Below are positions 1 through 58,900 of a stretch of DNA of 64,000 nt, piece by piece. Position 1 is the stretch's first letter, and the number at the start of each line of letters is the position of its first letter. Source of the stretch: Comamonadaceae bacterium (GTDB taxonomy: Bacteria > Pseudomonadota > Gammaproteobacteria > Burkholderiales > Burkholderiaceae_C). Below the pieces are notes generated by a model. That model was not told where the DNA came from, did no database searches, and worked only from the letters and a program-made list of their open reading frames with translations. The DNA is taken from contig JAIYBB010000001.1 of NCBI GenBank assembly GCA_027488735.1, forward strand, positions 331,623 to 395,622, read 5' to 3'. Made by a program: the position numbers and the translations under genes.

Positions 1-25
1 CGCGAGAAGCTCCTGAAATCATAGC
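1..25 (+). repeat. Dispersed repeat copy 1 (inside waaA, cut by window edge)
   Basis: Core AGCTCCTGAAATCATAGC preceded by CGCGAGA. It is read as coding sequence in waaA. The leading TG of the core lies off the window. Confidence 0.75.
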
Positions 26-545
26 GAATGATCCGGCGAAAAGTGCTCCATTGCCGTTCCAGCTGCTGGTAGTGCCACGCCACCCGCAGCGCTTTGCCGG
101 AGTTGCGCAGCTGTTTGCCGATGCCGGCTACTCCGTGGCTCAGCGCAGCCAGTGGGGCGAAGCGCCAGAGACCGCAGACGTGTGGGTGGGCGACTCGCTG
201 GGTGAAATGGCGCTTTACTTCGGCTTGGCCCATGTGGCTTTGCTGGGTGGCAGCTTCGCACCTCTGGGCGGGCAGAACCTGATCGAAGCCGCGGCCTGCG
301 GCGTGCCGGTTTTCATGGGCCCGCACCTCTTCAATTTCACCGAGGCCTCCACGCTGGCTGCAGAGGCCGGTGCTGCTCTGCAGTGCGCTGACCTTGCCCA
401 TGCCGTGACAGAAGCTGTGGCAACTGCCACTGACGCCAACCGTTTGCAAGGCATGCAAGACGCCGCCTTGGGCCTGGGTGCCGCGCACCGGGGAGCGGCA
501 ATGAAAACGGCCACTGAAGTGGCCGCTGTCATTCGAAATAACTAA
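1..545 (+). CDS. waaA: 3-deoxy-D-manno-octulosonic acid (Kdo) transferase, C-terminal part
   Basis: The reading frame is open from base 3 at the left edge, so this is the 3' end of a longer gene. WaaA adds Kdo from CMP-Kdo to lipid A at the inner membrane. About 180 residues of the GT-B C-terminal domain are visible, with VPRHPQRF, VGDSLGEM and the donor-site stretch GGQNLIEAA...GVPVFMGPH...NF that is typical of the family. A TTG at 51 could be mistaken for a start, but the coding sequence clearly continues upstream. The first 25 bases are a copy of the dispersed repeat read in frame (REAPEIIAN). The gene converges on tolC. Confidence 0.93.
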   Translation, partial: REAPEIIANDPAKSAPLPFQLLVVPRHPQRFAGVAQLFADAGYSVAQRSQWGEAPETADVWVGDSLGEMALYFGLAHVALLGGSFAPLGGQNLIEAAACGVPVFMGPHLFNFTEASTLAAEAGAALQCADLAHAVTEAVATATDANRLQGMQDAALGLGAAHRGAAMKTATEVAAVIRNN

Positions 546-553
546 GGCAGTTC

Positions 554-597
554 GCTATAGAATTTATAGCTGCTCGCGCATATTCCTCAGGCGCCAG
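554..597 (-). repeat. Dispersed repeat copy 2 (intergenic)
   Basis: Inverted copy filling the gap between the convergent waaA and tolC genes. Its end is a perfect palindrome, GCTATA-GAATT-TATAGC, followed by the GCTCGCGCA part and a GGCGCC block at 590-595. It could fold in transcripts from either side, but it has no T-run. Confidence 0.85.
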
Positions 598-56820: not shown

Positions 56821-56880
56821 ACACAGGATTGTCCTGCATGGATGCCACAATCCGCTGGTTGAAGCACTTTGTAACCTTCC

Positions 56881-58137
56881 ATGCAACTCCCCTTTGAGCT
56901 GACGATTGGCTGGCGCTATACCCGCGCCGGCCGCGCCACCCGGCGTAACGGCTTTATCTCTTTCATCTCCGGCGTGTCCATGCTGGGGATTTCGCTGGGC
57001 GTAGCCGCCCTGATCATCGTGCTGAGCGTGATGAACGGCTTTCAGAAAGAGGTGCGTGACCGCATGCTCGGCGTGGTGTCGCATATCGAGGTGTATGCCG
57101 CTGATGGGCAGGCCCTGCCCAATGCGGCGACCACCATGGCGCAGGCCAAAGAGAATCCGCAGGTCATAGGCGCGGCCCCCTTTATTGCGGCGCAAGCACT
57201 GATCGCGCGTGGGGAAGAAATGAAAGGTGCCATGGTGCGCGGCATAGACCCGGCCTTGGAGCCCCAAGTGAGCGACTTTGCCACCGGCACCCAGCAGGAG
57301 GCGCTGACCCGGCTGGTGCCCGGCGAGTTCGGCGTGGTGCTGGGCGGCGAGCTGGCCCGCAGCATGGGTGTGCGGGTGGGCGACAAGGTCACTCTGGTGG
57401 CGCCCAATGGGCAAGTCACCCCGGCCGGTGTGGTGCCACGCTTGAAGCAAATGACGGTGGTGGGCACCTTCGATTCCGGCCACTACGAATACGACTCGGC
57501 GCTGGCCCTGCTGCATTGGGAAGACGCCGCCCGCATCTTCCGGCTCGAAGGCCCCAGCGGCGTGCGCCTCAAGCTCAAGGATCTGCACCAAGCCCGTGAG
57601 GTTGCAGACCAGCTCGCACGCAGCCTGAATGGTGACTTGGTGCTGCGCGACTGGACCCGCCAGAACCGCAGCTGGTTTGCGGCCGTGCAGATCGAAAAAC
57701 GCATGATGTTCATCATCCTCACCCTGATCGTGGCGGTGGCGGCGTTCAACCTTGTCTCCACTCTGGTGATGACGGTGACCGACAAGCGCGCCGACATTGC
57801 CATCTTGCGCACGCTGGGCGCGAGCCCGGGCAGCATCATGGGCATTTTTGTGGTGCAGGGTGCCATGGTGGGCGTGATCGGCACCTTGGCCGGTCTGTTG
57901 CTGGGGCTGGGCGTGGCTTTCAATATCGATGTGATCGTGCCCGCGATGGAGCAGGCGTTAGGCGCGAGCTTTCTGCCCAAAGACATTTACCTGATCAGCC
58001 GCATGCCTAGCGAGCCACAGCAGGGTGACATCGTCCCGATTGCCGTGATCTCTTTGGTGATGGCCTTTGTGGCCACCCTGTACCCGAGCTGGCGCGCCAG
58101 CCGCGTGAACCCGGCGGAGGCCTTGCGTTATGAATAA
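56881..58137 (+). CDS. lolC: Lipoprotein-releasing ABC permease (LolC/LolE type)
   Basis: Inner-membrane permease extracting lipoproteins for LolA. The 418-residue protein has one N-terminal helix, a large periplasmic domain and three C-terminal helices. FISFISGVSMLGISLGVAALIIVLSVMNGFQ and DKRADIAILRTLGASPGSIM are family motifs. Only one such permease gene is present, so it may act as a homodimer, the LolF type. It overlaps lolD by 8 bp. Confidence 0.93.
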   Translation: MQLPFELTIGWRYTRAGRATRRNGFISFISGVSMLGISLGVAALIIVLSVMNGFQKEVRDRMLGVVSHIEVYAADGQALPNAATTMAQAKENPQVIGAAPFIAAQALIARGEEMKGAMVRGIDPALEPQVSDFATGTQQEALTRLVPGEFGVVLGGELARSMGVRVGDKVTLVAPNGQVTPAGVVPRLKQMTVVGTFDSGHYEYDSALALLHWEDAARIFRLEGPSGVRLKLKDLHQAREVADQLARSLNGDLVLRDWTRQNRSWFAAVQIEKRMMFIILTLIVAVAAFNLVSTLVMTVTDKRADIAILRTLGASPGSIMGIFVVQGAMVGVIGTLAGLLLGLGVAFNIDVIVPAMEQALGASFLPKDIYLISRMPSEPQQGDIVPIAVISLVMAFVATLYPSWRASRVNPAEALRYE

Positions 58138-58900
58138 GCCCGTCTCATCGGTAGAACAAGCAGTGGCTGCGGCCCAGTACCAGCAGGTGGCGGAGTTGAC
58201 GGCGCCCATCGCTTTTGTCCCTGATGGTGAGCTGGTGCTGCAAGTGCGCGGCCTGACCAAACGCTTCGAAGAAGGTCGCCTTGACGTCACTGTGCTGCAG
58301 GGCGTGGACCTGCAGGTGCACCGCGGCGAAACGCTGGCCATTGTGGGTGCCTCGGGTTCTGGAAAGAGCACTTTGCTGCACCTGATGGGCGGGCTGGATG
58401 CGCCCAGTAGCGGCAGTGTGGAGCTGTTGGGCCAGTCGCTGGCCAGCCTTACGGCCACTGAGCAAGGTCGCTTACGCAACAAGCACCTTGGTTTTGTCTA
58501 CCAGTTTCACCACCTGTTGCCCGAGTTCAGCGCGCTGGACAACGTGGCCATGCCATTGACAATTCGCCGTCTGGCGCCCGCGGAATCTGCGCAAGCAGCT
58601 ATGAAAATGCTAGCGTTGGTGGGGCTGGAGCACCGCCTGCACCACCGCCCGGCTGAGCTTTCGGGTGGGGAGCGGCAGCGTGTGGCTATCGCCCGCGCAC
58701 TGGTCACCCGACCCGACTGTGTGCTGGCCGACGAGCCCACCGGCAACCTGGACCGCAGCACGGCAGACGGCGTGTTTGAGCTCATGCTCCAGTTGGCGCG
58801 CGAGCAAGGTACAGCCTTTGTGCTGGTCACCCACGACGCCACCTTGGCGGCCCGCTGCAGCCGGCAACTCAAGCTGGTGTCCGGCCGTTTGGTGGACTGA
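58130..58900 (+). CDS. lolD: Lipoprotein-releasing ABC ATP-binding protein
   Basis: A 256-residue ATPase with an extra N-terminal segment of about 36 residues before VLQVRGLTKRF. Walker A GASGSGKST, signature LSGGERQRVAIARAL and Walker B VLADEPTGNLD are present. A dispersed repeat copy encodes ESAQAAMKMLALVGL between the Q-loop and signature. The repeat is in frame, so the domain tolerates it. Partner of LolC. Confidence 0.93.
   Translation: MNKPVSSVEQAVAAAQYQQVAELTAPIAFVPDGELVLQVRGLTKRFEEGRLDVTVLQGVDLQVHRGETLAIVGASGSGKSTLLHLMGGLDAPSSGSVELLGQSLASLTATEQGRLRNKHLGFVYQFHHLLPEFSALDNVAMPLTIRRLAPAESAQAAMKMLALVGLEHRLHHRPAELSGGERQRVAIARALVTRPDCVLADEPTGNLDRSTADGVFELMLQLAREQGTAFVLVTHDATLAARCSRQLKLVSGRLVD
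58573..58614 (+). repeat. Dispersed repeat copy 14 (inside lolD)
   Basis: GGCGCCC, then TGCGCAAGCAGCTATGAAAA and TGCTAGC, a full-length copy read in frame within the helical part of lolD. Confidence 0.75.

Follow-up and report, generated by a model that had tools for sequence, protein, structure and literature searches.

A family of ~64-bp repeated sites in Comamonadaceae DNA, possibly acting as a DNA uptake signal

Introduction

We describe here a dispersed repeat of about 64 bp, found in a 64,000-nucleotide stretch of DNA from a Comamonadaceae bacterium (assembly GCA_027488735.1, contig JAIYBB010000001.1, positions 331,623 to 395,622; the whole stretch is called the window, and its coordinates are counted from its first base). 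Among described systems, uptake signal sequences and DNA uptake sequences (USS/DUS) come close to it. In the accessible portions of PMC1626085 and PMC2397512, USS/DUS do not behave as insertions in the gap test that is also used below, are conserved above their surroundings, show no orientation bias, have AT-rich flanks and fall into dialects; their density is about one per kb, and 65% of the H. influenzae USS are coding (PMC1626085). The element resembles them as they are presented there: it has many copies, which are gap-free in genes where checked, its motif columns are more conserved than its loose ones, its strand bias has no consistent direction between genomes, AT-rich tracts lie beside its core, and it shows lineage dialects and a patchy distribution. 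With the repetitive extragenic palindromic sequences, their paired form and the associated transposases (REP/REPIN-RAYT), as far as the excerpts of PMC3116915 and PMC2817692 go, it shares a high copy number, a mainly intergenic location, palindromic parts, a single Y1 gene in the genome and element-like sequence beside some RAYT genes.

Two reports touch the same bacteria. The consulted sections of PMC5217627 give, as potential novel motif pairs, GCTTAT(N)5AAGCG in Acidovorax ebreus (114 copies) and ATAGCT(N)22CAAAAG in Polaromonas naphthalenivorans (125 copies), R. ferrireducens being the species with most pairs; the pairs are reported there without a full unit, conservation or function. The beta-proteobacterial repeat element (BRE) is described, in the available part of PMC3110155, from Polaromonas, Rhodoferax, Acidovorax and Delftia as mainly intergenic with some copies in genes, 75-91 bp long, of 69% G+C in Bordetella and often in tandem. 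By that description, BRE, which may or may not be the same element, differs from the present one of about 64 bp and 50% G+C, whose copies are mostly single. Natural transformation is known from the family: according to the part of PMC4212676 that we could consult, A. temperans, A. facilis and Verminephrobacter are naturally transformable, and uptake by Verminephrobacter appears selective and requires pilus genes and type IV pili. Our literature search, made mainly among freely accessible papers, returned no description of the whole element or of a Comamonadaceae uptake signal.

We tentatively propose that the repeat constitutes a genome-wide family of sites with conserved key positions, which would be recognised by a protein and whose most likely role would be that of a DNA uptake signal, not of an element that is still moving.

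Results

Reality and make-up of the repeat

A search of the window for the core TGCGCGNGNAGCT, with at most one mismatch allowed, gave 12 occurrences, against a mean of 3.76 and a maximum of 11 in 100 shuffles. A gap-free profile of 64 columns (A2/R1) was built from 37 copies, without those of lolD and the recJ start; 11 of the 37 came from the window. In 1.49 Mb, 74 matches of at least 12 bits were found on the forward sequence, the 37 profile copies included, and 0 in the reversed sequence; the sites are shown to be far commoner than chance. The scores of the matches followed a bimodal distribution. The initial annotation had listed 14 copies of a 27-bp repeat. The length had to be replaced by the unit of about 64 bp, and the list held in part. 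Twelve places score with the profile (1, 554, 9125, 13344, 14640, 19094, 21894, 34313, 42724, 46579, 52130 and 58573). About 10 of them had gone into building it and so match by construction; 1 and 58573 are independent of it. At 6263 nothing above 7 bits was found in the profile search, and 55046 gave 9.3 bits only, the reversed sequence itself reaching about 10 bits; a copy at 23672-23724 had been missed. That copies lie on both strands, in genes and between them, was confirmed.

The unit is made of an AT-rich tract (roughly AAGCC-WWWW-GGCC), an AGCGC block, some 10 variable bases, TGCGC-N-AGC, AGCTAT, seven loose bases and ATAGC. The GGCGCCC block corresponds to columns 23-29, with the AT-rich tract upstream of it. 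Dialects differ by genus, and that of Acidovorax is clearly distinct, the middle of the unit reading CTACCGCTTG-N5-CAAGCGCTAG. In 1.11 Mb of Acidovorax DNA, all 6 exact occurrences of GCTTAT(N)5AAGCG fell inside element matches, as did 76 of 84 for the form GCTT(N)7AAGCG. The Acidovorax motif pair of PMC5217627 is a fragment of this element, and the part of that report at hand gives it the same intergenic and convergent bias. The Polaromonas pair is likely identical with the element, with a spacing of 22 vs 30 in the Polaromonas copies seen here (4 cases). In the window, AGCTCC replaces AGCTAT in the copies 46543-46605 and 52130-52192; the variant is kept at 46543 in the orthologue of the nearest relative (G001), and may be a stable sub-type.

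Constraint at motif positions

Copies shared between genomes were compared column by column. For a pair of Acidovorax genomes, 21 of the 22 shared copies were used (the one at A21 99248 was omitted, its surroundings being 100% identical). Changes by column information were 64/376 below 0.25 bits, then 24/189, 41/461 and 10/210, and 3/273 at 1.5 bits and above. For the window and G001, with 24 copies from other genomes supplying the column information, the corresponding counts were 63/171 below 0.5 bits, 41/171, 29/108, and 5/126 at 1.5 bits and above (p 1e-12). We estimate that the choice of copies by score might by itself about halve the rate at motif columns, to be set against the nine- and fifteen-fold reductions seen. 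In the Acidovorax pair, gap columns numbered 2 in the element and 194 in the flanks. Tests on synonymous codons of single genes yielded no significant comparison (lowest p 0.051-0.053).

Copies without added length

At two loci that allow a clear test, lolD and the overlap at recJ, copies are shown to lie in existing coding sequence without making it longer. The lolD segment was gap-free in 66 of 68 listed orthologues, whether the motif was present or not, L048 and L083 being gapped; aligned with chain D of PDB 7v8l, which we take to be E. coli LolD, the window protein was gap-free over 221 residues. Where recJ overlaps its upstream gene, the ATGA overlap and the distance were unchanged in all 10 loci that have a copy of at least 18 bits and an anchored upstream gene, and the median distance was equal in loci labelled copy-free. 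In the mobA-like gene the segment measures 26 residues in the window and in the match-free orthologues L182, L184, L190, L192 and L194. The signal-peptide gene at 14608-14850 and the 3′ end of the ATPase gene give no length test, because lengths there are too variable.

Six presence/absence sites were viewed, a small sample. None showed a target duplication or an empty site cut cleanly at the limits of the element, and insertion with clean borders was rejected on these. Two Acidovorax genomes, about 95% identical, have in common 22 of the 24 copies of contig A21; the 2 unshared ones are a close inverted pair (229266-229356) in a rearranged stretch, and on the G049 side three copies lack a partner, at rearranged junctions. 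Length-neutral copies and motif constraint together argue against a moving element. Of the two origins that the initial annotation had suggested, a family of binding sites is supported by the constraint at shared copies and the length-neutral overlap with genes; the mobilised element fits poorly with the shared copies and the six sites, and retains a link to RAYT genes that is treated in the Discussion.

Distribution among genomes

The occurrence in the family that the initial annotation had suggested was borne out, the repeat being present at named Curvibacter, Rhodoferax, Polaromonas, Acidovorax and Comamonas loci. Seventeen genomes were reached through named loci and chosen by the presence or absence of a copy at the recJ locus. 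Among the 12 carriers, 11 had at least 150 scored matches and one had 142, against 1-2 matches each in the five others (Hydrogenophaga, Variovorax, Ramlibacter, Limnohabitans and Hylemonella). In a sample of 120 genomes from the family of G028, 47 had matches: at least 28 (of 44 scored) in 28 of them, 6-11 in 4, and 1-2 in 15. This compares with 14 genomes with any match in a sample of 300 from the order, 4 of which, the centre included, had at least 17. Neither of the outcomes that the initial annotation had named as counter-evidence was thus seen, counts being far above chance and matches much rarer in the order than in the family. With a profile tuned to Acidovorax and a threshold of at least 14 bits, sampled densities were 117 copies in 1.11 Mb and 53 copies in 400 kb, i.e. 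one per 7.5-9.5 kb; the genome of A. facilis DSM 649 holds at least 150 copies. A recJ tree required at least 9 changes of carrier state. The labels come from loci of 4-22 kb, and the count is a rough indication, since at least one locus labelled as lacking the repeat (L029, genome G021) belongs to a genome with 42 matches.

Plasmid searches returned one weak record with the window copy at 52130, and one Comamonas plasmid with one copy when an Acidovorax copy was used. The exact 18-base core pattern was also seen in 21 viral-contig stretches of IMG/VR (L392-L412).

Origin of the window DNA

The window is the final 64 kb of its contig (C6) in an assembly of 2.5 Mb. It has 61% G+C, compared with 53-57% in the sampled remainder of the contig, the shift starting near C6:325,000. 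From there, about 6.6 kb upstream of the window, to the contig end, G+C passes from about 53-55% to 61-65% and gene order becomes Curvibacter/Rhodoferax-like. An assembly-wide profile search (E ≤1) gave 17 matches, of which 14 lie in C6:326613-390236; of the other 3, two are below 13 bits, and the third, with 20.5 bits, lies close to where contig C3 ends. Curvibacter sp. GWA2_63_95 and a Rhodoferax metagenome-assembled genome are both collinear with the window. The assembly looks chimeric, or to have acquired a block of more than 70 kb by transfer. From the G+C shift, the clustering of matches and the collinearity, the repeat belongs to Comamonadaceae-like DNA that was misjoined or transferred as a block.

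Genomic context and RNA structure

Context was scored for 117 copies with gene calls from our own script, 22 of these copies being counted in both of two related genomes (A21 and G049:C1). Convergent gaps held 25 of the 80 intergenic copies, vs 104 of 628 gaps overall; between tandem genes, 19 copies had the orientation of the genes and 27 the opposite one. On G049:C1, 24 copies were on the plus and 54 on the minus strand (p 0.0009), and the sampled G046 leaned the opposite way (33 vs 20, p 0.098). There is no consistent strand bias between genomes, and a polar signal of the KOPS or Chi kind was set aside on these counts. The spacing of copies was slightly even, with a coefficient of variation of 0.79; p was 0.017 with random places as the null and 0.048 with random gaps.

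The partial palindrome AGCTAT...ATAGC pointed out in the initial annotation is present in the copies; the RNA folding derived from it found no support. In 89 copies, covariation did not rise above that of shuffled columns; pairs of columns compared in 49 copies (no null was computed for these) did not support an RNA structure, RNAalifold gave only 2 consensus pairs, and no Rfam match was obtained. Single folds had z above -1.2 in 10 of 11 window copies, the exception being 21873-21936, which contains a terminator-like hairpin. A structured RNA was rejected on the whole of these tests.

Copies of the window

Of the window copies whose locus was covered, 9 of 10 were found again in G001, and 6 of 8 in a second relative, G002. 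The highest score of the window, 52.4 bits, belongs to the intergenic copy at 52130..52192 (minus strand), which is in G002 and absent at the altered G001 locus. At the window start, 1..25 (plus strand) is the 3′ part of a copy that spans C6:331586-331647, 37 of its bases preceding the window; it lies in an open frame (...AHVEYAREAPEIIANDP...) that looks waaA-like by eye, and is common to G002 (48.9 bits). Between genes, we find 554..616 (minus, flanked by two convergent genes, 44.7 bits, absent in G002), 9106..9167 (plus, 35.9 bits, also in G001 and G002), 21875..21936 (plus, overlapping the terminator-like hairpin, 40.4 bits, in G001 and not found in G002) and the weak 23672..23724 (minus, intergenic by our own gene calls, 19.9 / 23 bits). 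Two others touch a gene end from outside: 42706..42765 (plus, 43.2 bits), between two minus-strand genes, overlaps by 7 bases the predicted start of 42173-42712, and 46543..46605 (plus, 42.2 bits), between convergent genes, overlaps by 5 bases the stop of 45807-46547.

The remaining copies lie in genes. The one at 13314..13370 (plus, 43.6 bits) holds the last codons of an ABC ATPase gene (12692-13369), that at 19059..19119 (plus, 36.8 bits) is within the gene of the MobA-like nucleoside triphosphate transferase (18624-19202), and that at 58559..58614 (plus) is inside lolD (58130-58900), whose length is as in orthologues; it reaches 37.7 bits with a profile excluding it. At 34313..34375 (minus, 35.6 bits) the copy is on the opposite strand of the first codons of an open frame (34280-35122) with an apparent signal peptide, judged by eye. 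The copy at 14606..14666 (plus, 40.8 bits) encodes what looks, again by eye, like the signal peptide of a small protein (gene 14608-14850). It does so in the window and in several relatives, unrelated apparent signal peptides being found in others.

Discussion

The constraint at shared copies and the length-neutral overlap with genes support a family of binding sites. From comparison of the sequences, we infer recognition by a DNA-binding protein. Most properties of USS/DUS are matched, density, length and intergenic share excepted, and selective transformation has been reported in the family without a named signal; on these grounds we propose an uptake-signal-like role. The two adjacent palindromic parts would be bound by a receptor that probably belongs to the type IV pilus or the competence machinery, and DNA bearing the site would be preferentially taken up and recombined. 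Such a bias would keep old sites, new ones being set up by substitution or by recombined tracts. Loss of the receptor in a lineage would let the sites decay, which would explain the patchy distribution.

Several observations weigh against an uptake signal. By comparison with what the accessible text says of USS/DUS, the element is about ten times sparser and mostly intergenic: 80 of the 117 copies lie between genes, where 15% would be expected, 23 inside genes and 14 across gene ends. Since its density is far below one per kb, it would work like USS/DUS, not be a member of them. Its length, about 64 bp, is also far greater than their 9-12 bp. Between the window and G001, columns of 1.0-1.5 bits changed (0.27) like those of 0.5-1.0 bits (0.24), and in the Acidovorax pair the mean divergence over all columns is 7.5% in the element vs 7.7% in the flanks. 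Length neutrality has its exceptions: the recJ start lies 13-37 bases past the motif in four Polaromonas-group loci, and the mobA-like segment varies from 26 to 30 residues among orthologues, with the element present or absent. The ComEC-type gene (PF03772) was found in 17/17 genomes, and this competence gene was discarded as a separating factor, as carriers and non-carriers alike have it. The portion of PMC4212676 consulted reports no transformation between Acidovorax species, though the dialect is common to the genus; a recombination barrier could account for this. Lastly, uptake leaves unexplained the sequences found 3′ of RAYT genes.

These sequences are the strongest point in favour of a REP-like history, in which the element was spread in the past by a single-copy RAYT (Y1) transposase and its copies have persisted from then on, perhaps in the role of binding sites. 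Of 54 RAYT genes, 9 have element-like sequence of at least 8 bits in their 3′ flank, vs 2 of 632 background stretches (p 3e-9), and a second RAYT gene in G002 (L102) is flanked by copies on either side; the mainly intergenic location, the enrichment between convergent genes and the bimodal scores would fit as well. Yet 45 of the 54 flanks score below 8 bits, and the Y1 gene, present in all 17 related genomes, in 44 of 47 Acidovorax and in 30 of 31 Polaromonas, is also in the 5 non-carriers out of 5. REP/REPIN, as presented in the excerpts consulted, further differ in their doublets, which are lacking among the 78 copies of G049:C1 (no close inverted pairs, and a single pair within 300 bp, which is direct; A21 has one inverted pair), and in the empty sites and covariation that the element lacks. 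Its length-neutral copies in lolD and at recJ, its palindromes without covariation, and the six sites without a clean empty one all speak against such a history, which we hold to be somewhat unlikely. REPs carry a GTAG tag. This tag is not constant in the element. By the RAYT link, a REP-like origin keeps a place, and it and an uptake role are not mutually exclusive. Many RAYT 3′ flanks have GCTAT...TTGATRTGTCCC in common without the full element; in the flanks examined (L102-L120, L341-L391) it comes with outer AATTGGGGTCAGATTCC / GGAATCTGACCCCAATT repeats, possibly the RAYT genes' own ends. In one genome of the Acidovorax genus group (G074), 37 Y1-family matches with nearly all identical scores correspond to an expanded IS200-like insertion sequence.

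Motif constraint would also be accounted for if the sites bound a chromosome-organising protein, or one acting as a roadblock at gene boundaries, with no part in DNA uptake. Two adjacent palindromic parts without covariation recall the sites of dimeric DNA-binding proteins, and copies near gene ends, enriched between convergent genes and without preferred orientation in tandem genes (19 same, 27 opposite), would suit such a function. Against this stand the 23 of 117 copies inside genes, together with the failure to find a candidate protein or to see regional clustering, and we judge this explanation unlikely. A structured RNA or a transcription terminator repeated at gene ends, to which the partial palindromes and the hairpin overlapped by the 21875 copy might point, is highly improbable given the lack of an Rfam match and of covariation above shuffles, the 2 consensus pairs, the z values above -1.2 in 10 of 11 folded window copies, and the presence of both orientations in tandem genes.

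To return to the uptake signal, a stronger form of the proposal can be stated, which we regard as possible but doubtful: it would be the first outside Neisseriaceae and Pasteurellaceae, a long, two-palindrome label of self-DNA in competent Comamonadaceae, with genus dialects, written into genes by substitution and lost in sister genera, among them Variovorax, Ramlibacter and Hydrogenophaga.

Annotators of these genomes should bear in mind that the motif sometimes contains a start codon, a stop codon or an apparent signal peptide. Even as a site of chromosome organisation or a target of RAYT, the element would still represent a large set of constrained sites of unassigned function, and a candidate partner sequence for domesticated RAYT proteins. 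If it is an uptake signal, it would explain why transformation is selective in Verminephrobacter and Acidovorax; the part of PMC4212676 consulted names no signal for this. It would then provide a testable sequence label for natural transformation in a large group of environmental bacteria, and a third, unrelated group in which to study uptake specificity.

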